From NCBI RefSeq assembly GCF_017876535.1, contig NZ_JAGIOF010000001.1, forward strand, positions 3,286,001 through 3,350,000: DNA of 64,000 nt, given 5' to 3'. Below, one piece after another: positions 49,810 to 64,000 of the stretch. The stretch is from Paeniglutamicibacter kerguelensis. GTDB taxonomy: Bacteria; Actinomycetota; Actinomycetes; Actinomycetales; Micrococcaceae. The stretch's first letter is position 1. Each line of letters begins with the position of its first letter. The notes beneath the pieces were generated by a model that was given only the letters and a program-made list of their open reading frames with translations, made no database searches and had not been told where the DNA came from. The position numbers and the translations under genes are program-made.

Positions 49810-51273
49810 CTAGCGCTTGCCGTTGACCATCTGCGGCACGTTCAGCGGGTTGCCGTCCTGCAGCGCCTCGGGAAGCAACGCCTGCGGGAAGCCCTGGTAG
49901 GCAACCGGGCGCAGGAAGCGGGAGATCGCCGCGGTGCCCACGGAGGTGCTTCCCACGGAGGTGGTTGCCGGGTACGGGCCGCCGTGCTGCTGCGCGTAGG
50001 TCACCGAGACGCCGGTCGGCCACTGGTTCCACAGCACGCGGCCCGCCTTGCGGGAGAGCACCTCGATCAGCTCGGTGACTTCGCAGCTCTCGGTGCCCAC
50101 GAGGGTGGCGGTCAGCTGGCCCTCGAAGCTTTCGGCCAGCGCAACCAGTTCCGACTCGTCCGTGTACTCGACGACCAGGGCGGTCGGGCCGAAGCACTCG
50201 GTCTGCAGGGACTCAGGGTGCGCCAGCAGGTCCTCGGCGCTGGTGAGCAACAGGGTGGGGCTTGGCGGATCGGCCAGCGGGTCAGAGCCCTGGGCCAGGA
50301 CCTTGACCTTGTCGTGGCCCTGCAACGCCTCAAGCACCTCGACGTAGCCGGCCTGGATGCGGCCGTTGAGCAGCGCGGCAGCGGCCGGAAGCTCGGTGGC
50401 GCGCAGGGTCTCGACGATCTGGGAACCGCGCGGGACAAAGATGGTTCCCGGCTTGGTGCAGAACTGTCCGGCGCCCATGGTGAAGGACGCGACGAATTCG
50501 CCGGCGATCGCGGCGCCGCGCTCGGCGGCCGCGGCGGCGGTGACGAAGACGGGGTTGTTGGAACCGAGTTCGCCGTAGAACGGGATCGGCTCCGGGCGGG
50601 CGTTGGCCATGTCGAAGAGGGCGCGGCCGCCGGGGATCGATCCGGTGAAGCCGGCCGCCTTGACGCGCGAATCCTTCAGTGCGGTGGCGCCGGCCTCGGT
50701 GCCCATGACCAAGGCGAAGACGCCGGCCGGGACGCCGGCGGAAGCCAGTGCCGCTGCAACGGTGTTTGCCGTGGCGATCGAGAGTTCCGGGTGGCCCGAG
50801 TGGGCCTTGAGGATGACCGGGTTGCCCGCGGCCCATGCGGAGGCGGTGTCGCCGCCTGCCACGGAGAAGGCGAACGGGAAGTTGCTGGCCGCGAAGACGA
50901 CGACCGGGCCCATTGGCTCGAGCACGCGGCGCAGGTCCGGGCGCGGGGCGCCCATCGGCCACTGGGCATCGGCGTGGTCGATGCGCGCGTCCAGGTAGGC
51001 GCCGTCGCGCAGCACCTCGCCGAAGAGGCGCAGCTGGAAGGTGGTGCGCTTGAGCTCGCCGGTCAGGCGGGCCTGCGGCAGGTTGGTCTCGGCCATGGCG
51101 ATCGGGATGAGGATGCCGGCGGCCGCATCAAGGGCGTCCGCAACCGTATCCAGCACGCCGGCGCGCTCGGAGGGGCGCAGTGCCGCCCACGGGGCCGCAG
51201 CCTGCTGTGCGGCAACGAGGATTTCCTCGAGCTCGGTGGCTGTCGTCGGGGTGACGGTGATGGTGGTCGTCAT
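49810..51273 (-). CDS. 2-oxoglutarate semialdehyde (2,5-dioxovalerate) dehydrogenase
   Basis: A 487-residue ALDH-superfamily enzyme. The cofactor pocket 'AGFTGSIPGGRALFD' and catalytic Cys272 ('MGAGQFCTKPGTIFVP') are intact, with 'FYGELGSNNPVFV' and 'TECFGPTALVVEY'. The Phe-Cys-Thr-Lys-Pro-Gly pattern is that of KGSADHs, the final step of hydroxyproline and pentose/aldarate breakdown, giving 2-oxoglutarate. It is the last gene of the operon, after the dehydrogenase subunits. Unlike the broken ALDH at 4839, it has all catalytic residues. Confidence 0.94.
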   Translation of the reverse strand: MTTTITVTPTTATELEEILVAAQQAAAPWAALRPSERAGVLDTVADALDAAAGILIPIAMAETNLPQARLTGELKRTTFQLRLFGEVLRDGAYLDARIDHADAQWPMGAPRPDLRRVLEPMGPVVVFAASNFPFAFSVAGGDTASAWAAGNPVILKAHSGHPELSIATANTVAAALASAGVPAGVFALVMGTEAGATALKDSRVKAAGFTGSIPGGRALFDMANARPEPIPFYGELGSNNPVFVTAAAAAERGAAIAGEFVASFTMGAGQFCTKPGTIFVPRGSQIVETLRATELPAAAALLNGRIQAGYVEVLEALQGHDKVKVLAQGSDPLADPPSPTLLLTSAEDLLAHPESLQTECFGPTALVVEYTDESELVALAESFEGQLTATLVGTESCEVTELIEVLSRKAGRVLWNQWPTGVSVTYAQQHGGPYPATTSVGSTSVGTAAISRFLRPVAYQGFPQALLPEALQDGNPLNVPQMVNGKR

Positions 51274-51364
51274 GATGGGTGTGGTCCTTTCACGGGGAAG
51301 TTCGGTGGTGACCCGGATGGTGAGTCAAAGGTCAAGATTCGGGGATGGCGGGTAGTGCGAGCGC

Positions 51365-52816
51365 TCAGGAGTCCTGGGGCTGCCGGGAGTCCAGGGTGCT
51401 GATCTCGCCCAGGGTCAGCGGGGCTGCGACGGGGCGCTTGGCGAAGGCAGCAAGCGAGGCTTGTTCGGTCCCGGCGTCGTCGGCCCCCTTGGTGGAAAGG
51501 CAGGAGACGGCAAAGCCGCAGACCTTGCCCTGGCACCAGCCCATGCCGGTGCGGGTGAAGGACTTCATGGTGCGCGCATCCGTGGCGCCCAGTTCGACGC
51601 GCGCGTGCACGACCTCGCCGTGGCTGACTTCCTCGCACCTGCACACCAGGGTGTCGTCGGCGAGCAGGTCGTCCCACTTTTCGGGGACGGGGTGCGCCCG
51701 GTGCATGGCCCCGGCGAACCGGCGGTGGCGCTGGATCTGCCGTGCGGTGCCGGCGCTTGGCGCCTCGCCGTTGGCCGCGGCGGCCCCGGCAACGAGCCCC
51801 TCGGCCACGGCCAGCACGGCCCCGCCTACGCCCGTCACTTCACCGGCAAGGTAAAGGCCCGGCACGTTGGACGCCTGCTGGCCGTCGACGACGCAGACCA
51901 GCGAACCGTCGGCGTCGATGCGCGTCGTGGCCCCCAGGGCCACGGCAAGTTCGACCTGCGGGGTGAAGCCCCAGCCGAAACCGACGACGTCCACGTCCTC
52001 AAGCAGCTGTTCGGTTCCGGCAATGACGGCGCCGTCGGCGTCTACCTTGGCGATGCGCACCGACTTGGCGCTGGACTCCCCCAGCACCTCGGTGACAACC
52101 GTGCGGGTGCGGTAGCGGATGCGGTGCTTGGCAAAGATGCCCGCGTATTCCGCGCCCTCCAGTGCCTTGCCCGGCACGCCGCTTGCGGCCCCCAGGTGCG
52201 GGAGCCAGTTGGCCAGCGAGGCCGATTCGCACACGGCCACGACCTTGCCGCCGGCCTCTGCGATGTTTGCGGCCACCGGAAGCAGGAAGGGCCCGGTCCC
52301 GGCGACCACAAAGCGTTTGCCCGGCAGGGTGCCGTTGGCCTTGATGAACGCCTGGATTCCGCCGGCGGCCATGACGCCGGGCAGTTCCCAGCCGGGCAGC
52401 GGCAGCTGGCGGTCGTAGCCGCCGGTGCAGGAGACAAGCTTGGCGGCGCGGACCGTTGCCGCTTCGATGGCGGTGCCGGTGGCGGGGGTCAGGCGCAGCA
52501 CAAAGCGGCCGGCGTCCTCGCGTTCGGTCATCCACACCTGGGTGTTGGGCAGGTAGCGCAGCAGGCCGCGGGAAATGGCCGCGTCGAAGCGCGCGCGCAG
52601 GTCCAGGTAGGTCTTCCAGCCGTGGTGGCCGTGGCCGTCGGGCTCGGGGAAAACCGATTCCGGGCGGTGGCGCCAGAACTGGCCGCCGGGCTGGGTGCCG
52701 GTGTCGCACACGACGACCTTGGCGCCGCGTTCGGCCGCGGCAACGGCCGCGGACAGGCCCGCCGGGCCTGCGCCGATGACTGCTACGTCGAAGGCAAATT
52801 CCTCGTGGGCGCTCAT
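51365..52816 (-). CDS. D-hydroxyproline dehydrogenase-type FAD/[2Fe-2S] subunit (NAD(P)-like oxidoreductase)
   Basis: A 483-residue flavoprotein: FAD motif 'VAVIGAGPAGLSAAVAAAER', a second nucleotide fold 'RFVVAGTGPFLLPVAANIAE', and a C-terminal Cys cluster ('VCRCEEVSHGEVV' and 'GMGWCQGKVCG'). This matches the alpha subunits of HcnB/OoxA/LhpB-type multi-subunit imino-acid dehydrogenases. It overlaps the small ferredoxin-like gene upstream by 4 bp, implying a complex with it and with the DAO-type subunit. In this pathway it would pass electrons from cis-4-hydroxy-D-proline. Confidence 0.88.
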   Translation of the reverse strand: MSAHEEFAFDVAVIGAGPAGLSAAVAAAERGAKVVVCDTGTQPGGQFWRHRPESVFPEPDGHGHHGWKTYLDLRARFDAAISRGLLRYLPNTQVWMTEREDAGRFVLRLTPATGTAIEAATVRAAKLVSCTGGYDRQLPLPGWELPGVMAAGGIQAFIKANGTLPGKRFVVAGTGPFLLPVAANIAEAGGKVVAVCESASLANWLPHLGAASGVPGKALEGAEYAGIFAKHRIRYRTRTVVTEVLGESSAKSVRIAKVDADGAVIAGTEQLLEDVDVVGFGWGFTPQVELAVALGATTRIDADGSLVCVVDGQQASNVPGLYLAGEVTGVGGAVLAVAEGLVAGAAAANGEAPSAGTARQIQRHRRFAGAMHRAHPVPEKWDDLLADDTLVCRCEEVSHGEVVHARVELGATDARTMKSFTRTGMGWCQGKVCGFAVSCLSTKGADDAGTEQASLAAFAKRPVAAPLTLGEISTLDSRQPQDS

Positions 52817-53079
52817 GCGTCGAAGTCCCCTTCAATGTTCATGGAGTCGCAAACCTCGACCATGCAGGCGCGCTGGTTGGGTTGGCCGTCGATGGTGACC
52901 AGGCAGTCGTAGCAGGCGCCGATGCCGCAGAAGAGGCCGCGGGGTTTGCCCTCGTTGCGGGTGGTGCGCCAGGCCTTGATGCCCTCGCCCATCAGGACGG
53001 CGCCGACGCTCCGGCCCTGTTCGGTGCCCACCGGCTTCGAATTGAGTGTCACGGTGATCCGCTGCGGGGTGGTGCTCAT
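52813..53079 (-). CDS. [2Fe-2S]-binding small subunit of the imino-acid dehydrogenase
   Basis: An 88-residue plant-type ferredoxin-like protein with 'LFCGIGACYDCLVTIDGQP' and a fourth Cys in 'NQRACMVEV', giving the Cys spacing of HcnA/OoxA-type gamma subunits. It is coupled at both ends by ATGA overlaps with the two flavoprotein genes, which supports a three-subunit alpha-beta-gamma enzyme. AGGAG lies upstream of its ATG. Confidence 0.92.
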   Translation of the reverse strand: MSTTPQRITVTLNSKPVGTEQGRSVGAVLMGEGIKAWRTTRNEGKPRGLFCGIGACYDCLVTIDGQPNQRACMVEVCDSMNIEGDFDA

Positions 53080-54257
53080 GCTGCTGACTCCTGGTGGTTC
53101 TTTCCGGCCGGGGTGAATTCGCCGAAGCGTTCGGGGGCGAAGGGCACCAGGGACATGTCCGGGGGCAGCCCGGCCAGCGCCTGGGCGACCAGCTTCCCGG
53201 TGCCCGCGGACAGGCCGATGCCGGCGCCCTCGTAGCCGCTGGCGTGCCAGAGGCCCGGTGCGCGCGGATCGTGCCCGATGACCGGAAGGTGGTCCGGGCA
53301 GTAGGGGCGGAAGCCGTGGTAGTGGCGGATGATGCGCGTGTTCTCCAGGAACGGGAAGAGCGCGATCGCGTTGGCCGCCATCTGGCGCAGCGCGTCGGTG
53401 TTGACGCTGCGGTCGAATCCGACGCGCTCGCGGGAGGAGCCGATCAGGATGGAGCCGGCGGGGGTGCCCTCGACCACCGGGGAGGACTGCAGCCCGGCAT
53501 CGGAGCTTCCGACGTTGTCCACGTACTCGGCCGCGTACACCTTGTGGTGCACCATCGGCGGCAGCGGTTCGGTGACCATGACAAATCCCTTGCGGGGCTT
53601 CACCGGCACGTTGACCCCGGCCAGCGCCGCGATGTCCTCGGACCAGCTGCCCGCGGCGTTGACGACCGCCGGGGCGTGGAATTCACCGCGGTCGGTCTTG
53701 ACGCCGGTGACGGTGCCTCCATTGCGCACGAAGCCGGTGACCATGGTGTGGGTCTGCACCTTTGCCCCTGCGGCGCGGGCCAGCTTCAGCAGGTGCCCGG
53801 CCACGAGCATCGGCTGCACCTGGCAGTCGTCAGGGTACCAGGCGGCACCCAGCGCGTTCGGGGAAATGTTGGGTTCGAACTCGCGCAGCCGCGGGATGTC
53901 GACCCATTCGACGTCGATCCCGTGGTTGGTCTGGGCCTTGGTCAGGCGGTCCAGCGATGCCATGGAGGATTCCCGCGAGGCGACGATGATGCCGCCCTTG
54001 GACTCGAATTCCCAGTGCGAGGCGTGTTCGGCCAGGTCGCCGCGCCAGGTGTCCAGCGAGAACTTGGTCAGCTCGAGTTCCGGGCCGAGTTCCTTGTCGG
54101 AGACCAGGATGTTGCCCTCGCAGGCGGAGCTGGTTCCGCTGGCGGGCAGTCCGCGCTCCAGCACGGTGACGGAGAGTCCTTGTTGGGTGGCGAAGTATGC
54201 AATCGCCGAACCGATTACTCCCGCACCAATGACGATGACGTCGCTGGGCGCATTCAT
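53076..54257 (-). CDS. D-amino-acid-oxidase-type FAD subunit (D-hydroxyproline dehydrogenase beta)
   Basis: A 393-residue DAO-family flavoprotein with N-terminal 'VIVIGAGVIGSAIAYFATQQ', 'PRKGFVMVTEPLPP', and C-terminal 'GHDPRAPGLWHASGYEGAGI'. The family oxidises the alpha C-N bond of D-amino and imino acids. Coupled to the [2Fe-2S] gene and preceded by AAGGAG. In the context of a hydroxyproline epimerase it most likely oxidises cis-4-hydroxy-D-proline to pyrroline-4-hydroxy-2-carboxylate. Confidence 0.92.
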   Translation of the reverse strand: MNAPSDVIVIGAGVIGSAIAYFATQQGLSVTVLERGLPASGTSSACEGNILVSDKELGPELELTKFSLDTWRGDLAEHASHWEFESKGGIIVASRESSMASLDRLTKAQTNHGIDVEWVDIPRLREFEPNISPNALGAAWYPDDCQVQPMLVAGHLLKLARAAGAKVQTHTMVTGFVRNGGTVTGVKTDRGEFHAPAVVNAAGSWSEDIAALAGVNVPVKPRKGFVMVTEPLPPMVHHKVYAAEYVDNVGSSDAGLQSSPVVEGTPAGSILIGSSRERVGFDRSVNTDALRQMAANAIALFPFLENTRIIRHYHGFRPYCPDHLPVIGHDPRAPGLWHASGYEGAGIGLSAGTGKLVAQALAGLPPDMSLVPFAPERFGEFTPAGKNHQESAA

Positions 54258-54269
54258 GATTACTCCTTG

Positions 54270-55016
54270 TTACTGGGTGTGCTTCTTGGACTCGGCCGGG
54301 GCCTCGTCGTCCGGGCTGCCGGTGTTCCACATGCCGCGTGCGTGGCTGATGTGGCGGACCATCAGTTCATAGATGGCCTCGCCGTCGCCGCGTTCCACGC
54401 AGTCGATCATTTCGTGGTGTTCCTGCGCGGAGCCGTCGAGCTGGTGGTTGTCCATCAGCGTCTTGAGACCGTACATGCGGGTGCGCAGGCGCAACGACGT
54501 GGCAAGTTCCACGAGTTGCTTGTTTCCCGCGAAGCTCAGCAGTCGGGCATGGAACTCGCGGTCCGCGGCAAGGTAGGCGTCGGAATCCTTGTCGCGGGCG
54601 GTGCGCACGATGACGTCGGCCAGCGCACGCAATTCGGGGATCCTGTCGGCGGGAATCAGGGGCATCGCCCGCTTGGTTGCCTCCGGTTCGATCAGCAGGC
54701 GGATCTCCGCGATTTCGTCGAGCTCGGCATCGGTCATGCCGGTGATCCGGAATCCCTTGTTCTTGACTGTCTCCACCAGGCCCTCGCGGACCAGGTCCAT
54801 CATGGCCTCGCGGACGGGGGTCGCCGAGACGCCGAAGGCTGCGCCCAGGCTCGGCGCCGAGTACAGCTCGCCTTCCACCAAGTCGCCCGAGATGATCGAG
54901 GTGCGAAGCCGTTCGGTGACGGTTTCGCGCAGGCTCATCTGGCGGTCAAGTTTTTCAATGGTGAACCTTGAATTGCCGGTCATGGTTTGTTCTCCGATTT
55001 CCACAGGTGCGCTCAC
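54270..55016 (-). CDS. GntR-family (FCD-type) regulator of the hydroxyproline cluster
   Basis: A 248-residue regulator: winged helix 'LGAAFGVSATPVREAMMDLV' and an all-helical FCD ligand domain with the metal-binding Asp/His pattern ('ADREFHARLL', 'EHHEMIDCVERGD', 'VRHISHARGMW'). Such proteins bind a small organic acid or amino acid. GTG 55016 (AGGAG upstream, overlapping the reductase stop) and ATG 54983 (GGAG upstream) are both credible starts. It sits within the operon it probably controls; matching palindromes upstream of the first gene of the cluster and of the deaminase gene are likely targets. Confidence 0.92.
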   Translation of the reverse strand: MSAPVEIGEQTMTGNSRFTIEKLDRQMSLRETVTERLRTSIISGDLVEGELYSAPSLGAAFGVSATPVREAMMDLVREGLVETVKNKGFRITGMTDAELDEIAEIRLLIEPEATKRAMPLIPADRIPELRALADVIVRTARDKDSDAYLAADREFHARLLSFAGNKQLVELATSLRLRTRMYGLKTLMDNHQLDGSAQEHHEMIDCVERGDGEAIYELMVRHISHARGMWNTGSPDDEAPAESKKHTQ

Positions 55017-55966
55017 GCGTTTTTACTCCTGTGATCTTCATACACCACTGCGGCGGAAACCAAGTCTTCCCATGCCATGCCCACACCCGTGTAAAGCGTC
55101 GGCTTGCCTCCGGTGCGGCTGAATTTGCCGTTGACAAGGTCCTTGAGGTTCGGCGGATTGATCTCTTTCCATTCCTCGACGCTGCGTGCGGGGATCAGGT
55201 CCCCGCTTTCGCGCCACGAGGATGCGCGTCCCTCGACGACGACCTCGGAGCGCTTGACGAGCGTCTCGTCGACCTCGCGGGCATCAAGTCCGTGCTGTCC
55301 CACCGAGGCGATGATTGCGTGGTCGGCCGGTAGCGCTCCGTCAAAGAGCGGGGTCGGCGAGGAGGTCACGCACAGGATCACGTCCGCGTCCGGAACGTCT
55401 TCCAGGCTTCCGCGGGTGACGGCGATGCCTTCGGCGGCCAGCTGTTCGATCAGTGCCTGGATCCGCTCGGCGCGTTGGCCCACCACGGCGAAGGTGCCCT
55501 CGGGGAAGACCGCCTTGGCCGCACGGAAGTGGTTGACCGCCTGGATGCCGGCCCCGAAGACCAGCACCTTGGGGGTCCGGGTGAACGGCGCGTCACCCGG
55601 CGCGTCGGCAATGTTCTTGACGGCGGTCAGGGTGGCCGCCGGGGTGCGGATGGCCGTGAGCTCGGCGCCGTCCATCGAGGCAATCGGAGTGAGGTTCGAG
55701 GAACCGAAAAGCAGGTAGACGCCCTGGATCTTTTCCTCGCCCTTGGCCGGGTTCAGCGGGGCGATGGTCGCGACCTTGAGTCCGGTGTAGCCCTGGCCGA
55801 TCGCCGGCATCAGCAGGAATTCACCGTCCGGTGCCGGGGCGAAGATGCGCGGCCCGTCGATTTCCGGATCGGTCTGGCCGCGCAACGCATCCTCGATGGC
55901 GGCGATGGCGCGGTCGAAGGGAAGCGAGGCGCGAACCTCGGCGGCGTCGAAATATGGCAGGTTCAC
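55013..55966 (-). CDS. Ornithine cyclodeaminase/mu-crystallin-family reductase (pyrroline-2-carboxylate reductase-like)
   Basis: A 317-residue protein with the OCD-type Rossmann fold: 'VLVFGAGIQAVNHFRAAKAV', 'IASVGQHGLDAREVDETLV', and N-terminal 'PYFDAAEVRASLPFDRAIAA'. In hydroxyproline clusters homologues reduce Delta1-pyrroline-2-carboxylate to proline, using NAD(P)H, which handles the trans-3-hydroxyproline branch. Start is GTG 55966, overlapping the epimerase stop (GTGA). A true cyclodeaminase activity is unlikely here. Confidence 0.85.
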   Translation of the reverse strand: MNLPYFDAAEVRASLPFDRAIAAIEDALRGQTDPEIDGPRIFAPAPDGEFLLMPAIGQGYTGLKVATIAPLNPAKGEEKIQGVYLLFGSSNLTPIASMDGAELTAIRTPAATLTAVKNIADAPGDAPFTRTPKVLVFGAGIQAVNHFRAAKAVFPEGTFAVVGQRAERIQALIEQLAAEGIAVTRGSLEDVPDADVILCVTSSPTPLFDGALPADHAIIASVGQHGLDAREVDETLVKRSEVVVEGRASSWRESGDLIPARSVEEWKEINPPNLKDLVNGKFSRTGGKPTLYTGVGMAWEDLVSAAVVYEDHRSKNA

Positions 55967-56964
55967 AGCAGGAATCCCTCCGGGAACGGGTCGGTCGGGT
56001 CAAGGAAGTACTGGGCGGTGCCGGTGATCCAGGCCCGTCCGGTCACGGTGGGGATGACGGCGGGCAGCCCGCCGACGGTGGTTTCCTCGACCAGCCGCCC
56101 GGTGAACTGCGAGCCGATGTAGGACTCGTTGATGAAGTCGGTGTCCATGGCCAGTTCGCCGCGGGCGTGGAGCTGGGCCATGCGTGCGCTGGTGCCGGTG
56201 CCGCACGGCGAGCGGTCGAACCAGCCCGGGTGGATGGCCATGGCGTGGCGGGAATGCTCGGCGGTGGAGCCGGGGGCCTTGAGGTAGACGTGGTGGACGC
56301 CGCGGATGTCGTCGCGTTCGCGGTGCACGGGCTCGTCGGTCGCGTTGATGGCGCCCATGATGGCCAGGCCGGCGGTGATCAGGTCGTCCTTGCGTTCGCG
56401 TTCGAACGGCAGGCCCAGGTCCTCGAGCTCGACGACGGCGTAGAAGTTGCCGCCGAAGGCGAGGTCGTAGTTCACGGTGCCGTAGCCCGGGACCTCGACG
56501 GATGCGTCCAGGCGGTCGCTGTAGGAGGGCACGTTGCGGATGGTCACGGATTCGGCCGCCCCGTCCTTGACGGCGACCTCTGCGATGACCAGGCCAGCCG
56601 GAGTGTCCAGGCGCACGGTGGTCACGGGTTCGTGGACCTCGACCATGCCGGTTTCCACCAGCACGGTGGCAACGCCGATGGTTCCGTGTCCGCACATCGG
56701 CAGCAGTCCGGAGACCTCGATGTACAGGACGCCGTAGTCGGCGTCGGGGCGCGTCGAGGGCTGCAGGATCGCGCCGCTCATCGAGGCGTGTCCGCGCGGT
56801 TCGCACATCAACAGGGTGCGGATCCAATCGCTGTGCTCCATGAACCAGAGGCGGCGCTCTGCCATGGTGGCTCCGGGAATGGTGCCAATGCCTCCGGTGA
56901 TGACGCGGGTGGGCATGCCTTCGGTGTGGGAATCCACTGCGTGGAAGATCCTGTTGGTGCGCAT
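55963..56964 (-). CDS. 4-hydroxyproline 2-epimerase (proline racemase family)
   Basis: A 333-residue member with both catalytic cysteines: C91 in 'LLPMCGHGTIGVATVL' and C254 in 'FDRSPCGTGTSARMAQLHA'. This Cys/Cys pair defines racemases and epimerases, as opposed to 3-hydroxyproline dehydratases, which have Thr in the second position. It should interconvert trans-4-hydroxy-L-proline and cis-4-hydroxy-D-proline, the first step of the pathway. The ATG at 56964 is the best start. A hairpin separates it from the upstream deaminase gene. Confidence 0.93.
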   Translation of the reverse strand: MRTNRIFHAVDSHTEGMPTRVITGGIGTIPGATMAERRLWFMEHSDWIRTLLMCEPRGHASMSGAILQPSTRPDADYGVLYIEVSGLLPMCGHGTIGVATVLVETGMVEVHEPVTTVRLDTPAGLVIAEVAVKDGAAESVTIRNVPSYSDRLDASVEVPGYGTVNYDLAFGGNFYAVVELEDLGLPFERERKDDLITAGLAIMGAINATDEPVHRERDDIRGVHHVYLKAPGSTAEHSRHAMAIHPGWFDRSPCGTGTSARMAQLHARGELAMDTDFINESYIGSQFTGRLVEETTVGGLPAVIPTVTGRAWITGTAQYFLDPTDPFPEGFLL

Positions 56965-57006
56965 GGTGCAAACTCTCTGGGTAATCGTCGTTGATCGGGT
57001 GGTGCC

Positions 57007-57040
57007 GTTGGCCGGCCCCGCTTTCACGGGGCCGGCCAAC
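57007..57040. other. GC-rich intergenic hairpin within the hydroxyproline operon
   Basis: GTTGGCCGGCCCCG at 57007-57020 pairs perfectly with 57027-57040, leaving a 6-base loop, in the gap between the deaminase and epimerase genes. There is no T-tract, so it is more likely an attenuation, processing or mRNA-stability element than a full terminator. Confidence 0.6.
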
Positions 57041-57058
57041 AACACGGCAACTTCGAGG

Positions 57059-57964
57059 TTACTTGTAACCCTTGGCCACTGCGGCCTCGGTGTCGGCGAT
57101 GACCGCGGCGCGCACGGCGTCGGTCAGCGGGCCGCGCGGCGGGCGGCACACGCCACCGTTGAGGCCGACGACGTCCATCGAGAGCTTGATCGACTGGACG
57201 AACTCGGTCTTGGTGTCCCAGCGCAGCAGCGAGTGCAGGTCGCGGTAAATCTCGCGGGCGCGCTCCATGTCCGAAAGGTTGCCGGAGGTGGCCAGGCGGT
57301 AGAGCTCGACGGTGGCGTGCGGAATGGCGTTCGGGTAACCGGCAACCCATCCAACGGCGCCGGCGAGGCCCATTTCCAGGACGGTGTCATCGGTGCCGAT
57401 GAGGATGTCCATGCCCGGTGCCAGTTCCTTGATTTCGTAGGCACGGCGCGGGTCGCCGGTGAATTCCTTGATGCCGACGATCAGGCCTTCGTGGAACAGG
57501 CGTGCAACCAGGGCCGGGGTCAGGTCGACCTTGGTGTCGATCGGGTTGTTGTAGGCAACAACCGGCAGGCCGGCGGAGGCGGCGAGGCGGAAGTGCTCAA
57601 CGACCTCGTCGTCGGTAGCGCGGTAGGTGTTCGGCGGCAGGCACATGATGGCGTGTGCGCCGGCATCCTTGGCCTGCTGTGCCCACTTCTGGGTCTGCAG
57701 TCCACCGTAGGCGCCAACGCCGGCCATGACTACGAAGCCCTCCGGAGCTGCGGCAACGGCGGTCTCGATGACCTTGGCGCGCTCTTCGTCGGACAGGGTC
57801 TGGTATTCACCAAGCGAACCGTTCGGGGCGATGCCGTCGCAGCCGCTGCTGGCAAGGAAACGAACGTGGTCTGCGAATGCCTCATAGTCGACCGAGTAAT
57901 CGTCCTTGAACTGCAGCGCCGATGCGACGATGACTCCGTGCCAGGGCTTCTTGGTGGTGCTCAT
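57059..57964 (-). CDS. DapA-family deaminase (pyrroline-4-hydroxy-2-carboxylate deaminase-like)
   Basis: A 301-residue DapA-superfamily TIM barrel. The Schiff-base Lys is K166 ('GLIVGIKEFTGDPRRAYEI'), the Tyr is in 'VVAYNNPIDTK', and 'GIAPNGSLGEYQTLSDEERA' is the substrate carboxylate loop. Family members include dihydrodipicolinate synthase and the hydroxyproline-pathway deaminase; the cluster favours the latter, producing 2-oxoglutarate semialdehyde. The ATG at 57964 follows AAAGGA. A palindromic operator lies about 90 bp upstream. Confidence 0.88.
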   Translation of the reverse strand: MSTTKKPWHGVIVASALQFKDDYSVDYEAFADHVRFLASSGCDGIAPNGSLGEYQTLSDEERAKVIETAVAAAPEGFVVMAGVGAYGGLQTQKWAQQAKDAGAHAIMCLPPNTYRATDDEVVEHFRLAASAGLPVVAYNNPIDTKVDLTPALVARLFHEGLIVGIKEFTGDPRRAYEIKELAPGMDILIGTDDTVLEMGLAGAVGWVAGYPNAIPHATVELYRLATSGNLSDMERAREIYRDLHSLLRWDTKTEFVQSIKLSMDVVGLNGGVCRPPRGPLTDAVRAAVIADTEAAVAKGYK

Positions 57965-58051
57965 GTTGTGTTCCTTTCAAGGGGACTTTTCAATGATTTT
58001 CAAAGTTGTGGGTGACGCTTTCGACTCCATGCCGTACATCACATTCAAATA

Positions 58052-58070
58052 GTATCATGTGACATTGTAC
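58052..58070. promoter_or_regulatory. Palindromic operator upstream of the deaminase gene
   Basis: GTATCATGTGACATTGTAC is a 19-bp imperfect palindrome (7 of 9 pairs match around a central G). It lies 88-106 bp upstream of the deaminase start. Its core ATGT-G-ACAT is the same as the ATGT-C-ACAT core at 61072-61080, upstream of the first gene of the cluster. Probable GntR-regulator site. Confidence 0.65.
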
Positions 58071-58092
58071 AGACGGAAGGGGTCGGGAGAAA

Positions 58093-59571
58093 TTAGTTCT
58101 TTCGGGTCTCACCCGAGGCCAAAAGCGCCTGGTTTCCGGCGATTTCCGCCGCTTCCTCGACCCAGAAGTCGGCCCCGCGGATGCCCAGGGCGACGGGGTT
58201 GAAGACGGGGTCGAGGCCGGCCTTGCACTGCCTGTCGTAGTCGCGGGTGACCTTGAAGACCACCGAGGTGAGGGCAAGCAGGCAGAGCATGTTGATCCAG
58301 CCCAGGGTTCCATAGCCGATGTCGCCAATGGCCCACATCGCATCGGCGCTGATGATGCCGCCGAGGAAGGTGATGCCAAGCATGCCCAGCTTCAGGGCCC
58401 AGTCCAGCACCGGGCTGTCGTCGCGGCCAACGAGGTAGACCAGGTTGGTCTTGGCGATGTAGAAGAACGCGACAAGCGTGGTGAAGGCGAAGAAGAAGAG
58501 TGCGACCGCCACGAAGCCCGGCCCGACGCCCGGCAGCACGGTGCTGATGGCCTGCTGCGTGTACGCGGCGCCGGCCTTCAGGTCTGGCACGCCCTGGATC
58601 AGGACCGTGCCGTCGGGGGCCGTGACGTTGTAGGAGCCGGTCATGATGATCATCAGGCCAGTGGCGGAGCAGACAACGACCGTGTCGATGTAGATCGAGA
58701 AGGCCTGGACCAGGCCCTGCTTGGCGGGGTGTGAAACCGATGCCGCGGCGGCACCGTAGGTCCCCTCCCCCACGCCGGCGACATTGGAGAACACCGCACG
58801 TCGCACGCCCCAGGCCACGGCCGCGCCGACGATGCCGCCGAAGACCTGGTGGGCTCCGAAGGCGGAAGAGATGATCAGGCTGACGGTCGGAACGATCTGC
58901 TCGAAGTTCACGGCAACGATCACCAGTGCGGCAAGGATGTAACCCACGGCCATGACCGGGACCATCAGCTGCGCGGCACCGACGACGCGCCTGGTTCCGC
59001 CGATGATGACAAATGCCATGAGCGCGGTGATGCCGATGGCGCTCACGAGCGGCGGCACGTTGAATGCCGTCTCGACGCTGGAGGCGATGTTGTTGGACTG
59101 GACGCCCGGGAACACAAATCCGTAGCCGACCATGGCCATGAGCGACACCGCGACGGCCAGCCACTTGAGCTTCAGGCCGTGCTCGATGTAGAACGGCATG
59201 CCGCCGCGGTGCTCACCGTTGATGCGGCGCTTGTAGACCTGGGCCAGGGTGGATTCGGCGAAGGAGCTGGCCGATCCGAGCAGCGCGCAGACAACCATCC
59301 AGAACAGCGCGCCGGGGCCGCCTGCGGCAATGGCGGTTGCCACGCCGGCGATGTTTCCCACGCCCACCCGGCTGGCCAGGGTCAGGAGCAGCGCCTGGAC
59401 CGGCGAGATGCCGTCCGAGCTGTTCTTCTTGCTGAGGATCTGGCGGATCATGTCCGGGAACCGCCGGAACTGGACGAATCCGGTCAATACGGTGAAGAAC
59501 AGTCCGACGGCCAGGGCGAAGTACGCCATGGGGTTCCAGATCGCATCGTTGATGCTGGTGAGCATGTCCAT
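58093..59571 (-). CDS. Alanine/glycine:cation symporter family (AGCS) transporter
   Basis: A 492-residue membrane protein with about 11 helices, containing the AGCS hallmarks 'ALLLTLASRVGVGNIAGVAT', 'GGPGALFWMVVCALLGSASS', 'ESTLAQVYK' and 'FSNVAGVGEGTYGAAAASVS'. The family imports small amino acids with Na+ or H+. In this cluster it may carry hydroxyproline or proline, but no residue proves that. ATG 59571 has AGGAAAAA upstream. It lies between the MHS transporter and the deaminase. Confidence 0.93.
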   Translation of the reverse strand: MDMLTSINDAIWNPMAYFALAVGLFFTVLTGFVQFRRFPDMIRQILSKKNSSDGISPVQALLLTLASRVGVGNIAGVATAIAAGGPGALFWMVVCALLGSASSFAESTLAQVYKRRINGEHRGGMPFYIEHGLKLKWLAVAVSLMAMVGYGFVFPGVQSNNIASSVETAFNVPPLVSAIGITALMAFVIIGGTRRVVGAAQLMVPVMAVGYILAALVIVAVNFEQIVPTVSLIISSAFGAHQVFGGIVGAAVAWGVRRAVFSNVAGVGEGTYGAAAASVSHPAKQGLVQAFSIYIDTVVVCSATGLMIIMTGSYNVTAPDGTVLIQGVPDLKAGAAYTQQAISTVLPGVGPGFVAVALFFFAFTTLVAFFYIAKTNLVYLVGRDDSPVLDWALKLGMLGITFLGGIISADAMWAIGDIGYGTLGWINMLCLLALTSVVFKVTRDYDRQCKAGLDPVFNPVALGIRGADFWVEEAAEIAGNQALLASGETRKN

Positions 59572-59612
59572 AATTTTTCCTTAGGTCTTTCGGGCAGCTG
59601 CGGGAATCGGGA

Positions 59613-61004
59613 CTAGGCCGGGGCGTTGGTGCGCAACGCCGACTCGGCATCGACCTCGCGCAGCGACTTGCCCCTGGTTTCCTTGGCGAACGAAACGGCG
59701 ACGATGGAAATGACCGCGGCCCCGACAAGGTAAAGGGCGATCGGAGTCGACGAATCGAACTTCTGCAGCAGCGAGAGCGCAATGAGCGGGGCCAGGGAAC
59801 CCGCCAGGATCGGCGCAAACTGGTAGCAGAGCGAAAGCGCCGTGTAGCGCACGTTGGTGGGGAACATTTCGGTCATCAGCGCCGAGTACGGCGCGTAGGT
59901 CAGGGACTCGATGGCCAGGCCCAGGGTGATGGCCGCCATGACGATCCAGTCGTTGCCGGTGTCCATCATCGGGAAGCCGACAAATCCCCAGAATGCGGTC
60001 AGCACGGCGCCGGTCAGGTAGACGGGCTTGCGGCCAACAATGTCAGAGAGCAGCCCGACGAGCGGGATCATGCAGAAGTGCAGGAAGTGGGCGCCGAACA
60101 TCAGCAGGAGGATGCGCGAGGTGTCCATCTCGACGACCAACTTGAGGTAGGTGATCGAGAAGGTGACAACGAGGTAGTAGAGGATGTTCTCCGCGAAGCG
60201 GGCGCCAATGCCGATCAGCACGGCACGCCAGTGGTAGCGAAGGACGTGCAGGACGCCCGGCTGGGCTTCCTGCGAGGCGGCCTGGCGGGCCTGCGCTTCC
60301 TTGAAGATCGGCGCGTCGTCGACCTTGGTGCGGATCCAGTAGCCGATCAAGACCACCACGGCGGAGAACCAGAACGCCACGCGCCAACCCCACGAAAGGA
60401 ACGCCTCTTCGGGCAGGGTGCTCGACAGTCCGAGGAGGACGAGTGTGGCTACCAGGTTGCCCATCGGGACCCCGGCCTGCGGCCAGCTGGCCCAGAAGCC
60501 GCGCCTGTTGTCGGGGCTGTGCTCGCTCACCAGGATGATCGCGCCTCCCCACTCGCCGCCGAAGGCAAAGCCCTGGATGAGGCGCAGGGTCACCAGGAGT
60601 GCGGGCGCCCAGTAGCCGATGACATCGAAGGTGGGCAGGCATCCCATGAGGAACGTCGTGATGCCGACGACCACAAGGCTCAGCTGGAGCAACGCCTTGC
60701 GGCCAATGCGGTCGCCGAAGTGCCCGAAGACCAGTCCGCCGATCGGACGGGCGGCGAAGCCCACGGCGTAGAGCGCAAACGCGGCGATGACGCCATCGAC
60801 CGGGTTGCCGGTCTGCCGGAAGAAGTGGGTGCCGAAGACCAAGGCCGAAGCCGTTCCGTACAGGAAGAACTCGTACCATTCGGCGACGGTTCCCGCCATG
60901 GCGGCGGCCACAACACGTTTGAGACCCGCCGGCGTCGAGGTTTCGTGCCCAGCGTCGGGGCGGCCGCCAAGGGCCTCCCTTTCAAGCGTTTCGTTGTTGC
61001 TCAT
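59613..61004 (-). CDS. MHS-family (ProP/shikimate-type) MFS transporter
   Basis: A 463-residue carrier with 12 helices and MHS signatures: '[20 protein letters not shown]', '[15 protein letters not shown]' (motif A), '[20 protein letters not shown]' and the second-half '[20 protein letters not shown]'. This family includes ProP (proline/betaine) and other carboxylate carriers, so it is a second candidate for hydroxyproline uptake. The ATG at 61004 has AAGGAG upstream; it is the first gene of the cluster. The candidate GntR operator lies about 65-80 bp upstream. Confidence 0.92.
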
Positions 61005-61066
61005 TTGGTCTCCTTGAGAAGGTGGGCAACCTCGCCCACGTGTTCTGCATCACGAATCTATGCAAT

Positions 61067-61085
61067 GGTACATGTCACATTTTCG
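61067..61085. promoter_or_regulatory. Second GntR-type palindromic site, upstream of the MHS transporter gene
   Basis: GGTACATGTCACATTTTCG has the core ATGT-C-ACAT (61072-61080), matching the core of the site at 58052-58070. It lies 63-81 bp upstream of the first gene of the cluster, at a normal promoter distance. The outer flanks are less symmetric. Confidence 0.6.
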
Positions 61086-61206: not shown

Positions 61207-61244
61207 GAGCCCGACCCGTGGAAATCAATCCACGGGTCGGGCTC
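61207..61244 (-). terminator. Terminator of the peptide transporter/peptidase operon
   Basis: GAGCCCGACCCGTGGA at 61207-61222 pairs perfectly with 61229-61244, with a 6-base loop, 52 bp past the last stop (61296), followed on the minus strand by TTTCC. Confidence 0.85.
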
Positions 61245-61295: not shown

Positions 61296-62585
61296 CTAGG
61301 CCAGCGGACCGCCAACAGCGTCGACCATCGAAACCAGCCGCGGGAACACACCGGGGGCCGAGATGCCGTCATGCTCGAACTCGTTGGTCACCCAGGCCTG
61401 CAGGTTCCCGACCTGCGCGGCCGTTTCCAGCGAGAGCGGCGCGTCCACATACATGTCGTCGTGGTAGACGACGGCGGAGACAGGAACCTGGTTTTCCGCC
61501 AGTATCCGCGGGTCGTAGAGCGGGCCCCAGTCGTCCCGGCGGGCCATTTCGTTCACCGCGGCGCCGAAGGGCTTTAGCAGGCGGATTTCCTCGAACATCC
61601 ACGGGAACATCATTTCGCCGGTCATCAGCAACGGGCGGGCGGACTCGGCGAACTCCGGGTGCCGCTCGATTTCCCGCTGCGCCGCCCAGGCCGTTGCACC
61701 GCTTGCCCCGTCGGCGAAGATGCTCTCCTGCATCACGGCAAACAACGGGTTCTCCGCGTAGTTGCTGCGCGCTTGGACCTGGGCCAGGAAGGTGTCGCTC
61801 AGCTCGCCGCCGTCGTCGAACGCCTCGTCGATCAGCCACGCCATCCTTTCGAACCCCGGCTTCATGCCGTAGTCGATGCCCAGGGACTGGAAACGACGCA
61901 CCGTGAGCAGGTCTCCGTCCGGCAGGTGGACGTCGCCGACGGCCAAACGGTCGGCGATCTTCGCCATCGTTTCCACGTGGTTCCCGTAGCGTGCGTAGAA
62001 CTCCCCGTTCTTCGCCCTCGTGCGCACGTAGGTTCGGCGGTAGACCTCCGAGGCGTCGGGCGCCAGGCTCGGCAGCCCGCCGGCGATGTAGCAGGCGTTC
62101 AGCGCCTCGGGCGCCTGGCCAAGGTAGGTCAGCGTGAGGAATCCGCCGTAGCTTTGGCCCAGTGTCGACCACTTCCGCCCGCCGAAGACGGTCTTGCGCA
62201 GGAACTCGGCGTCGGAAACGATCGAATCGGCACGGAAGTGGCCCAGGTACTCGGCGCCGTCCGCCGCGCTCGGGAAGCGTTCCATCGAAGCTGCCGTGAT
62301 CCGGCTGCTGCGTCCGGTTCCGCGCTGGTCGAGCAGGAGCACGCGGTGGGTCTTCAGCGCCTCGCCGATCCACCCGGACTTGTCGAGCGGTCGCGGGCCC
62401 TTGCCGCCCGGGCCGCCCTGCAGGAACAACAGGACCGGCAGGTCCTGCCGCGCCTTCTCCGCGGAGCACAGCTCGCGGGCAAACACCTGGATGGTCCTCT
62501 CGTCGGGCCGCGCCCAGTTCAACGGCACCGTGACCACATGGTCACGGACCTGCATGCCTGCTGCCACATATTCGGCGGTGATCAA
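61296..62585 (-). CDS. Prolyl-aminopeptidase-like alpha/beta hydrolase (S33 family)
   Basis: A 429-residue alpha/beta hydrolase. 'VLLFLQGGPGGKGPRP' (oxyanion loop), 'LLLDQRGTGRSSR' and nucleophile elbow 'LGQSYGGFLTLTYLG' (catalytic Ser in GQSYGG), plus a late 'EFEHDGI' region with candidate catalytic His, match the prolyl aminopeptidase family. It would trim N-terminal Pro from peptides in the cytosol. It overlaps the upstream ABC ATPase gene by 4 bp, so it is cotranscribed with an oligopeptide importer, and it lies next to hydroxyproline catabolism. Confidence 0.9.
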   Translation of the reverse strand: MITAEYVAAGMQVRDHVVTVPLNWARPDERTIQVFARELCSAEKARQDLPVLLFLQGGPGGKGPRPLDKSGWIGEALKTHRVLLLDQRGTGRSSRITAASMERFPSAADGAEYLGHFRADSIVSDAEFLRKTVFGGRKWSTLGQSYGGFLTLTYLGQAPEALNACYIAGGLPSLAPDASEVYRRTYVRTRAKNGEFYARYGNHVETMAKIADRLAVGDVHLPDGDLLTVRRFQSLGIDYGMKPGFERMAWLIDEAFDDGGELSDTFLAQVQARSNYAENPLFAVMQESIFADGASGATAWAAQREIERHPEFAESARPLLMTGEMMFPWMFEEIRLLKPFGAAVNEMARRDDWGPLYDPRILAENQVPVSAVVYHDDMYVDAPLSLETAAQVGNLQAWVTNEFEHDGISAPGVFPRLVSMVDAVGGPLA

Positions 62586-63442
62586 TGTGCCATTCCCCCC
62601 ATGTATTGCTGCCTACGGATTTCCCATTCGGGATTGATGACGGGAACTGCCTTCAGCAGCGCCCGGGTGTACTCTTCCACGGGGTTCTCGAAGACCTGCG
62701 CCGTCGTGCCCTGTTCCACGATCCTGCCCTTGTTCATGACCGCGACGTCGTCGGCGATCTGCCGCACGACCGCCAGGTCGTGGGCGATGAAAAGGTAGGA
62801 GTAACCGGATTCCTGCTGCAGGTCGCGCAACAGGTTGATGACCTGCGCCTGGACGGAGACGTCCAACGCGGAGACGGCCTCGTCGCAGATGACCAGCTTG
62901 GGCTCCACCGCAAGGGCGCGGGCGATGCCGATGCGCTGGGCCTGCCCGCCGGAGAACTGGTTCGGGTACCTGGTGCTGTGGTCGGGGTTCAGCCCGACGC
63001 GTTCCAGCAGCGACTTCACCAGCAGTCGCCGGTCGACGCCCTTGATCCCCTGGTAGTCCAGCGGCGCGGTGATGATGCGCTCGACGGTGTGCTTGGGGTT
63101 CAGCGAGGAAAACGGATCCTGGAAGACCACCTGCACGTTGGCCCGGAAGCGGCGCAGCATCGTGTCGCCGGCGCGGGTCACGTCCTGGCCCTCGAAGTGC
63201 ATCGACCCGGAGGTGACGTCCAGGAGCTTGGCGATCATGCGCGCCGTCGTCGACTTGCCCGACCCCGATTCGCCGACCAGTGCCATGGTCCGGCCCGCGT
63301 GCAGGGCAAGCGAGACGTCGTCGACGGCGCGGAAGGTCTCCGTTCCGGCGAATGCGCCGCCCTTGCTGACCTGGAATTCGCGCACCAGGTTCTTCGCCTC
63401 GAGCAGCGGTTCGTTCCGGAGGTCTTCGATGACGACGCTCAT
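62582..63442 (-). CDS. Oligopeptide/dipeptide ABC transporter ATP-binding protein (DppF/OppF-like)
   Basis: A 286-residue ATPase with Walker A '[16 protein letters not shown]', '[19 protein letters not shown]' (Q-loop), signature '[19 protein letters not shown]', and Walker B '[20 protein letters not shown]', as in peptide importers. The ATG at 63442 is chosen: it overlaps the stop of the neighbouring ATPase gene by 4 bp (ATGA), and the frame beyond is shadow. It provides energy for peptide uptake together with the partial gene next to it. Confidence 0.93.
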
Positions 63443-64000
63443 GCTTCCTTCACCAGTCCTGAATTCACTTTCTTCATGGCCCGGATCGGATCGTCGATCC
63501 GCGGGATGGCATCCAGCAGGGCCTGCGTGTAGGGGTCGCGCGGATTCGAGAAGACGTCTTCGGTCGTCCCGTTTTCCACGACGTGGCCCTTGTTCATCAC
63601 CAGCACACGCTGGGAAACCTGCGAGACCACGGCCAAATCGTGGGTGATGAACACCATTCCGGTTCCCGATTCCGCTTGGAGCTGTGACATCAAGTCCAGG
63701 ATCTGCGCCTGCACAGTGACGTCCAGCGCCGTGGTCGGCTCGTCGGCGATCAACAGGTCGGGCTCGCAGCACATGGCCATGGCGATCATGATGCGCTGGC
63801 GCATGCCGCCGGAGAATTGGTGCGGGTAGTTGTCCACCCGGCGCTTCGGATCGCTGATTCCGACCCGTCCCATGGCGTCGATGGCCACGGCCTGGGCCGC
63901 ACGGAGCGATCCTCCGCGGTGGGCCTTGTAGGCCTCCGCGATTTGCTTGCCCACCGTGTAGTAGGGGTTCAACGAGGACAGCGGGTCCTGGAAGACCATG
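63439..64000 (-). CDS. Oligopeptide ABC transporter ATP-binding protein (DppD/OppD-like), N-terminus beyond window
   Basis: Only the C-terminal ~186 residues are in the window: the Q-loop '[20 protein letters not shown]', signature '[19 protein letters not shown]', Walker B '[20 protein letters not shown]' and '[16 protein letters not shown]' at the end. The Walker A part lies past 64000. With the DppF-like gene downstream it forms a heterodimeric ATPase; the permease and binding-protein genes probably follow outside the window. Confidence 0.93.

Follow-up and report, generated by a model that had tools for sequence, protein, structure and literature searches.

Predicted hydroxyproline catabolism in Paeniglutamicibacter kerguelensis and its possible link to a GH127 and peptide-importer operon

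The HypR regulon of Streptomyces coelicolor (SCO6289-6294) comprises, in the available parts of its description (PMC6608401), an epimerase, a three-subunit dehydrogenase, a deaminase and a GntR-FadR-type regulator; it reaches a collagenase, and those parts place no semialdehyde dehydrogenase nearby. Likewise, the 4HypE neighbourhoods in the available parts of PMC4113996 pair the epimerase with DAAO, DHDPS, ALDH and OCD proteins, and the 4HypE cluster of Streptomyces lividans is up-regulated on t4Hyp. The lhp cluster of Pseudomonas aeruginosa (PMC6608401 in part) also has a three-subunit D-hydroxyproline dehydrogenase, but is controlled by an AraC-family activator, LhpR, where we propose a GntR repressor for P. 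kerguelensis.

Hydroxyproline-rich glycoproteins are a component of the plant cell wall, and the use of their protein part by soil bacteria has been little described. In the HypBA1/HypBA2/HypAA system of Bifidobacterium longum and its homologues in Xanthomonas euvesicatoria, GH127 frees L-arabinose from Ara-Hyp (PMC6085000), and an ABC importer for beta-L-arabino-oligosaccharides is reported for B. longum in the available parts of PMC7263609. For the Latescibacteria, extensin use via GH127, peptidases and oligopeptide importers was proposed from the gene content of single-cell genomes; a linked operon, a shared operator or a hydroxyproline catabolic pathway is not described in the available parts of that paper (PMC4454575). 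The terms ‘glycoside hydrolase’ and ‘arabinofuranosidase’ are absent from the main text of PMC4113996, whose available parts name peptidases with a Bacilli t3HypD cluster. Hydroxyproline and GH127 do co-occur in existing literature. In the literature searched, which covered few subscription journals, we found neither a joint mention of GH127 and hydroxyproline epimerase nor one of hydroxyproline, iminopeptidase and arabinofuranosidase together. The locus described here bridges two literatures, on bacterial hydroxyproline catabolism and on GH127 arabinofuranosidases.

The window analysed is a stretch of 64,000 nucleotides of P. kerguelensis DNA. Positions 49810–61004 hold ten genes, all on the − strand, of the families named in a first-pass annotation. 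The features of this cluster, with the sites and putative terminator upstream, are as follows.

49810..51273, − strand, aldehyde dehydrogenase, predicted 2-oxoglutarate semialdehyde dehydrogenase (PF00171, 152 bits)
51365..52816, − strand, HcnB/LhpE-like alpha subunit, predicted D-hydroxyproline dehydrogenase (Pyr_redox_2 and Fer2_BFD)
52813..53079, − strand, HcnA/LhpF-like [2Fe-2S] subunit (Fer2_4, 77.5 bits)
53076..54257, − strand, HcnC/LhpB-like FAD (DAO) subunit (PF01266, 263 bits)
54270..55016, − strand, GntR-FCD regulator, proposed HypR (GntR and FCD domains; operator matches)
55013..55966, − strand, OCD-family reductase, predicted pyrroline-2-carboxylate reductase for proline salvage (PF02423, 107 bits)
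55963..57045, − strand, predicted 4-hydroxyproline 2-epimerase (PF05544, 442 bits; Cys118/Cys281)
57059..57964, − strand, DHDPS-family deaminase, predicted pyrroline-4-hydroxy-2-carboxylate deaminase (PF00701, 172 bits)
58059..58072, − strand, HypR-type operator CTGTACAATGTCAC, 5′ of the deaminase gene
58093..59571, − strand, AGCS amino acid carrier (TIGR00835, 420 bits, over cut-off)
59613..61004, − strand, MHS-type carrier (TIGR00883, 394 bits, under the cut-off of 443)
61058..61080, + strand, HypR-like double site CTATGCAATGGTACATGTCACAT, 5′ of the MHS gene, with two mismatches to the HypR 14-mer
61207..61244, − strand, putative terminator-like hairpin between two operons, read by eye in the intergenic sequence

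The genes are transcribed in the order MHS, AGCS, DapA-type deaminase, Cys/Cys epimerase, OCD, GntR-FCD, three-subunit dehydrogenase and aldehyde dehydrogenase. The first-pass annotation had placed the four steps to 2-oxoglutarate on consecutive genes of one strand. The genes, strand and families agree with this, but the order does not, as the epimerase gene is preceded by that of the deaminase and is separated from the dehydrogenase genes by those of the OCD and the regulator. The overlapping junctions that it gave for the dehydrogenase are evident from the coordinates as 4-nt overlaps at hcnC/hcnA and hcnA/hcnB, and overlaps of the same length occur at epimerase/OCD and OCD/GntR. Rfam and tRNA searches gave zero matches.

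The predicted epimerase has a Cys/Cys catalytic pair, with C118 in MCGH and C281 in RSPCGTG (the DRSPCGTG motif). As its PRK13971 score falls under the NCBIfam cut-off (358 versus 376 bits), it was assigned by residues and context rather than by the model. According to PMC4364671, 4-hydroxyproline 2-epimerases carry His at pocket site 4, site 5 being Cys or Tyr. In the P. kerguelensis protein site 1 is a HypE-like Ser, in agreement with the absence of Phe described there; site 4 is an alignment gap beside a His, and site 5 holds Ile rather than Phe or Cys/Tyr. The DAO, Fer2_4 and Pyr_redox plus Fer2_BFD subunits of the dehydrogenase share one operon, as expected of the LhpBEF/HcnABC type. For the aldehyde dehydrogenase, the nearest solved chains are 1eyy (385 bits) and 3v4c (360 bits), and its scores lie below the cut-offs of the NCBIfam models AlphKGSA_gudD (73 against 770 bits) and DioxValDhHalo (92 against 750), which may cover other types.

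The families, the Ser at site 1 of the epimerase, the HypR operator and the tested Streptomyces relatives all agree with the earlier reading of a complete trans-4-hydroxyproline cluster. They support assignment of the core to the ordinary pathway of the type tested in Streptomyces (PMC6608401 and PMC4113996, in the parts available), with the substrates predicted here. The MHS and AGCS carriers would bring in trans-4-hydroxy-L-proline, which the epimerase would convert to cis-4-hydroxy-D-proline and the HcnABC-type dehydrogenase to pyrroline-4-hydroxy-2-carboxylate. The deaminase would then give 2-oxoglutarate semialdehyde, and the aldehyde dehydrogenase 2-oxoglutarate.

In all ten relatives whose downstream side was chosen for fetching, the epimerase gene is followed by those for OCD, GntR, HcnC, HcnA, HcnB and ALDH (with GntR placed after ALDH in locus L128), so the cluster is not a product of chance. 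Across 31 related loci, from which the PRS matches L020 and L034 were left out as another type, DapA was present in 30, OCD in 26, HcnA in 23 and HcnB likewise in 23; for these two subunits the ∼4 kb of downstream flank limits the count. As exceptions for DapA, it lies on the opposite strand in L035, and the contig of L028 ends before it. The AGCS carrier recurs in 11 of these loci and a close MHS carrier (>800 bits) in four; the pair, which had been called unusual, is thus uncommon but real.

The OCD gene had been taken to imply that the cluster, regarded as free-standing, handles 3-hydroxyproline as well as 4-hydroxyproline. OCD reductases are indeed described together with 3-hydroxyproline dehydratases in the available parts of PMC4113996, and PrR2, encoded just outside the window (L004:11367-12407), has a Tyr/Gly/Phe pocket, as in 3-hydroxyproline dehydratase. 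Against this, the catalytic pair of PrR2 is Cys/Cys, with a Cys where the dehydratases carry Thr. No Cys/Thr member of the proline racemase family (a 3-hydroxyproline dehydratase) was present among the two genome members over cut-off, both of which are Cys/Cys, and AcnX was not found in the P. kerguelensis genome by a search that was positive in five control genomes. Moreover, the OCD gene is retained in the cluster in 14 of the 18 related genomes with a single strong PRS-family member (Cys/Cys), making proline salvage likelier than 3-hydroxyproline handling, and we give a free-standing cluster for both substrates very little credence. In the likelier role, L-proline slipping through the epimerase and dehydrogenase would become pyrroline-2-carboxylate, from which the OCD reductase would most likely restore L-proline. 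This assigns the reductase a testable role; its scores with the NCBIfam Pyr2C reductase models are 154/322 bits (PRK06141), 153/266 and 121/400. Family members in relatives G024, G211 and G230 have Ser at the second catalytic site.

The first-pass annotation had also claimed a built-in regulator, and a GntR-FCD gene does lie inside the cluster, with matching HypR operators. We propose that this protein is HypR from its domains, the cluster context and the TRCAATGTCAC operator at the promoter, the definition of the HypR class also including zinc-sensitive DNA binding and repression relieved by L-Hyp. The deaminase operator is identical over 11 bases to the footprinted S. coelicolor operator (PMC6608401, in the parts available). 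TRCAATGTCAC occurs once in the genome, 5′ of the deaminase gene, and its reversed control likewise matches once. Allowing at most one mismatch to the HypR 14-mer gives three sites genome-wide: at the deaminase gene, at a GH127 gene upstream of the cluster (where the site, TGCAATATCAC, carries a mismatch) and inside an ORF. With up to two there are 61, versus 19 for the reversed control, and the 7 sites within the window are at chance level (5.9 expected). Since the lone 11-mer equals its control and the matches in the window equal chance, the case for HypR rests on position and conservation.

A wider pattern occurs 5′ of DapA in 24 of 30 relatives and, P. kerguelensis included, 5′ of MHS in 5/8 and GH127 in 3/4, with none 5′ of hcnB (0/23), hcnC (0/26), OCD (0/26) or PIP (0/7); in these counts L030 and L031 belong to a single genome, with the genes in their overlap (AGCS, SBP5, dpp) double-counted, and L046 and L106 duplicate G094 and G143. 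Elements of the CTATGCAATGGTACATGTCACAT type are also found 5′ of MHS in L016, L024 and L025 and 5′ of AGCS in L018. Twenty cluster-bearing genomes have 37 exact sites, 23 inside the cluster and 14 elsewhere; six same-genus genomes lacking the cluster have 5 in total, and the reversed control gave 4 across all 26. The exact-type motif lies 5′ of 14 of 73 GH127 genes (59 are without it), a count that includes several Kribbella sites 10–16 nt inside a guessed and probably wrong start, and whose background rate was computed with the sites left in. As HypR, the GntR-FCD protein would repress at the deaminase and carrier promoters and would also act at that of the GH127 operon.

The site at the GH127 gene suggests that the regulon extends upstream, past the cluster as first delimited and past the window, to a second operon encoding a predicted GH127 beta-L-arabinofuranosidase, an SBP5 lipoprotein, two permeases, two ATPases and a prolyl aminopeptidase.

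61296..62585, − strand, prolyl aminopeptidase (proline iminopeptidase, PIP), at the 3′ end of the operon (nearest solved chain 8jgn, AT3g61540, 345 bits; iminopeptidase models weak, all under cut-off)
62582..63439, − strand, DppF-type peptide ABC ATPase (PRK11308, 321 bits, under the cut-off of 408; start chosen by hand adjoining DppD)
63439..64000, − strand, DppD-type ATPase, truncated by the window end
L004:5296-11031, outside the window and continuing the DppD-type operon, permeases, SBP5 lipoprotein and GH127

Residues E318, E334, C336, C412, C414 and C415 of the GH127 protein align to E322, E338, C340, C415, C417 and C418 of HypBA1. All six compared residues are therefore kept, forming what we take to be the acid/base Glu and the Zn/nucleophile Glu-Cys-Cys-Cys set, and arabinose release is predicted. 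A point on the other side is its score of 368 bits with the aceric acid hydrolase model (cut-off 950). The P. kerguelensis locus differs from S. coelicolor in having carriers, OCD and ALDH in the cluster and a site on the GH127/peptide importer/prolyl aminopeptidase operon, and from B. longum in having an importer of peptide type with hydroxyproline genes alongside.

Several arabinosides serve as substrates for GH127 enzymes, and the cargo of SBP5 importers includes non-peptides and can include sugars. The upstream operon could on these grounds be a beta-L-arabino-oligosaccharide system (for RG-II or arabinan) whose hydroxyproline neighbourhood is coincidental, and in Arthrobacter sp. MYb227 an arabinose operon (araA, class II aldolase, FGGY kinase and LacI) does lie beside GH127, though it fits a system for arabinosylated peptides as well. 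The operator of HypR type common to both operons argues against this, as do the proline-specific peptidases (prolyl aminopeptidase or aminopeptidase P) in 61 of 65 Actinomycetes GH127-anchored loci of this type. A hydroxyproline-catabolism gene was present in the fetched flank of 36 of these loci, two or more in 19, and none over threshold in 29, where some flanks end too early; distant-GH127 loci in the same tally gave 0/9. Of 12 genomes with both a GH127 and an epimerase-family gene (our own included), 5 have the two co-located, against 0.16 expected (P of at least 5, 2.4e-7; of at least 4, 1.2e-5), in a test whose 13-kb distance was set after seeing the data, in which G202 and G230 have weak GH127 scores, and which counts G218 (a 998-aa enzyme of another type, missed by phmmer with our own GH127) and G236 (GH127 cut by a 6-kb contig). 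We consider a coincidental neighbourhood quite improbable.

An unlikely, though better founded, alternative is that the upstream module serves plain hydroxyproline or proline peptides, from collagen or any source, with GH127 an accessory in some strains. In genome G210, where GH127 was not found, a HypR-like site (wider pattern) lies 5′ of SBP5, PIP is present without GH127 in fetched loci L018, L021, L027, L032 and L038, and the collagenase of the S. coelicolor regulon is of the M9 type (PMC6608401, in the parts available). M9 collagenase had no match in the P. kerguelensis genome, and the control genomes also gave none. Opposed to an accessory GH127 are its position directly after the operator in P. 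kerguelensis, MYb227 and Specibacter cremeus, and the presence of the full importer in 61 of the 65 loci with this GH127 type.

Gene families, active-site residues, operator matches and conserved linkage, all read from sequence, instead point to a HypR regulon that probably imports extensin-type arabinosylated hydroxyproline peptides, removes their arabinose, cleaves the peptide and yields 2-oxoglutarate from the hydroxyproline, the substrates, the repression and the glycosylated-peptide uptake being predictions. In that regulon the hydroxyproline cluster would form the amino-acid half; the upstream operon would import the arabinosylated peptides, GH127 would strip arabinose in the cytoplasm and the peptide would then be cut. 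If this is true, hydroxyproline should co-induce GH127, importer and epimerase, and the binding protein should bind hydroxyproline peptides. More tentatively, and with some doubt, many Actinomycetes may possess an oligopeptide ABC importer dedicated to the uptake of arabinosylated hydroxyproline peptides in intact form; an intracellular GH127 would then deglycosylate these, and a single repressor responsive to hydroxyproline would govern the use of both the sugar and the imino acid. Such a glycopeptide system, directed at the hydroxyproline-rich glycoproteins of plants, might in addition rid the rhizosphere of plant peptide hormones that carry arabinose.

A point against the arabinosylated-peptide reading is that AraA (L-arabinose isomerase) was not found in the P. 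kerguelensis genome, in a search with five positive controls. As a gauge of signal peptides, a hydropathy script run from guessed starts gave values >2.0 for 53 of 64 SBP5, 9 of 73 GH127 and 0 of 56 PIP proteins.

The ten genes that the first-pass annotation placed at 49810–61004 were all recovered by gene calls and family searches, on the minus strand and in the families it had named, in a genome of 4,807,802 bases. The features concerned are as follows.

48092–49195, plus strand: PF07995 glucose/sorbosone dehydrogenase-like gene, immediately downstream of the cluster in convergent orientation
49810–61004, minus strand: the cluster, transcribed in the order MHS carrier, AGCS carrier, DapA-type deaminase, Pro_racemase-family epimerase, OCD-family reductase, GntR-FCD regulator, the DAO (HcnC), [2Fe-2S] (HcnA) and Pyr_redox/Fer2_BFD (HcnB) subunits of a predicted D-hydroxyproline dehydrogenase, aldehyde dehydrogenase
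58059–58069: upstream of the deaminase gene, the same 11 bases as in the Streptomyces coelicolor HypR footprint
61296–64000: end of an operon that runs out of the window

The core hydroxyproline pathway is already known. The catalytic motifs of the epimerase hold Cys118 and Cys281. In an alignment with a Thermococcus enzyme whose residues were mutated in PMC4364671, sites 1 and 5 of the epimerase are Ser and Ile, both positions being Phe in proline racemases. With the curated 4-hydroxyproline epimerase model it scored 358 bits, just below the cut-off of 376.

The Pro_racemase cut-off was exceeded in 59 of 245 family genomes, some of the matches being short and low-scoring. The surroundings of 33 strong matches were fetched from other genomes and two loci of another type (L020 and L034) were left out. 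The remaining 31 loci contained DapA (30), GntR (28), OCD (26), HcnA (23) and HcnB (23), together with AGCS (11) and close MHS (4) carriers, a second proline-racemase-family enzyme, PrR2 (11), prolyl aminopeptidase (6), a strong match to the importer's binding lipoprotein, SBP5 (3), and GH127 (3). OCD, GntR, all three dehydrogenase subunits and the aldehyde dehydrogenase were present on each of the 10 downstream sides fetched later.

The OCD gene had been taken as pointing to a 3-hydroxyproline branch. This claim was not supported: the gene is kept in the cluster in 14 of 18 genomes whose single strong (>200 bits) proline-racemase-family member is Cys/Cys, and since no Cys/Thr dehydratase of the family was found in those 18 genomes, OCD is not explained by 3-hydroxyproline. 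OCD enzymes that reduce pyrroline-2-carboxylate are described in PMC4113996. The epimerase and dehydrogenase, if acting on proline, would produce pyrroline-2-carboxylate, and the likeliest role of OCD is to reduce it back. Three genomes (G230, G211 and G024, at loci L042, L043 and L044) encode a third member of the family, whose two catalytic motifs carry Cys and Ser.

The S. coelicolor repressor HypR, of the GntR-FadR type, acts on an operon for epimerase, deaminase and three-subunit dehydrogenase; the HypR footprint reads TACAATGTCAC, and cells without the epimerase gene do not grow on L-hydroxyproline (PMC6608401). TRCAATGTCAC has one match in our genome, before the deaminase gene; its rarity alone proves little because the reversed control pattern also has one. 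Allowing up to one mismatch to the published 14-mer yields three sites: one precedes the deaminase gene, one a GH127 gene that lies 12 kb upstream, and one falls inside an ORF. With at most two mismatches there are 61 sites, compared with 19 for the reversed control, and a double site with two mismatches lies upstream of MHS.

Twenty cluster-bearing genomes have 37 exact sites, 23 at cluster promoters and 14 elsewhere, and six genomes of the genus that lack a strong epimerase match have five in total; the reversed control gave four sites in all 26 genomes. Another exact motif lies at C32:11451–11461 in Specibacter cremeus, a member of the same family, on the same contig as its cluster and outside the fetched part. 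Wider-pattern sites in relatives stand before operon-initial genes and are rare elsewhere. They precede DapA in 24 of 30 relatives and, with our genome included, MHS (5/8), AGCS (6/13), GH127 (3/4), SBP5 (3/6) and PrR2 (2/15). Such sites are scarce before gntR (1/29) and PrR (1/32), and none was found before hcnB (0/23), hcnC (0/26), OCD (0/26), prolyl aminopeptidase (0/7) or the peptide importer (dpp) genes (0/24).

The operon that leaves the window (followed in L004, our own locus extended) encodes a prolyl aminopeptidase resembling Arabidopsis AT3g61540 (8jgn, 345 bits), two peptide ABC ATPases, two permeases, the SBP5 lipoprotein and the GH127 enzyme, for whose family the genome has no other match. 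GH127 keeps all six compared HypBA1 residues and is without a hydrophobic start (0.77); SBP5 does have such a start (2.34), together with a lipobox-like sequence. Bifidobacterium and Xanthomonas GH127 enzymes free arabinose from Ara-Hyp (PMC6085000). PrR2 adjoins GH127 outside the window (L004:11367–12407); its pocket residues match those of a 3-hydroxyproline dehydratase, but its catalytic pair is Cys/Cys.

Using this GH127 as the anchor, a scan identified 74 loci, 65 close (Kribbella, Nonomuraea, Streptomyces, Plantibacter, Agromyces and others) and nine distant. The nine distant loci, only four of which exceed 12 kb, lack importer, peptidases and hydroxyproline genes. Of the 65 close loci, 61 had a full importer; prolyl aminopeptidase was present in 56 and aminopeptidase P (Peptidase_M24 with AMP_N) in 32, and the number with either peptidase was also 61. 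Hydroxyproline-catabolism genes occurred in 36 close loci, 19 of them with two or more and 17 with a single one, often DapA-type; the other 29 had none over threshold. The order GH127, proline-specific peptidase, deaminase, epimerase on one strand was seen in 8 of 19 mapped loci (L060, L085, L087, L091, L092, L094, L105 and L106), the importer of L085 being a weak remnant only. Of the 12 genomes (our own included) that have both GH127 and an epimerase-family gene, 5 have them no more than 13 kb apart, a distance set after the data were seen, compared with 0.16 expected. Exact-type motifs were found before GH127 (14/73) and DapA (7/30), with a background of 0.007 per region, and were absent before dppB (0/62), dppC (0/62), SBP5 (0/64) and prolyl aminopeptidase (0/56).

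From these computed family memberships, residues, operator matches and linkage, our best reading is a putative HypR regulon for arabinosylated hydroxyproline peptides; we infer its substrates, the repression and the uptake of glycosylated peptides. The peptides would be imported, stripped of arabinose in the cytoplasm and then cut by the proline-specific peptidases, and hydroxyproline would be converted to 2-oxoglutarate by the four-step route. No recognisable L-arabinose isomerase was found in our genome, and therefore the freed arabinose may go another route or exit the cell. GH127 use on extensin, with peptidases and importers, was proposed from gene content for Latescibacteria (PMC4454575); searches of an open-access library found no earlier description of GH127, peptide importer, peptidase and hydroxyproline genes linked in one HypR-controlled regulon.

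In Arthrobacter sp. MYb227, a member of the same genus, aldose epimerase, L-arabinose isomerase, class II aldolase, FGGY kinase and LacI regulator genes lie between GH127 and PrR2. In 11 Kribbella loci (L047, L049 and others), RNA-repair genes (Pnkp ligase, Hen1) lie upstream of the GH127 operon. A different GH127-domain protein of 998 aa (L023:12537–16732) adjoins an amidohydrolase ∼4 kb downstream of the hydroxyproline cluster in genome G218.
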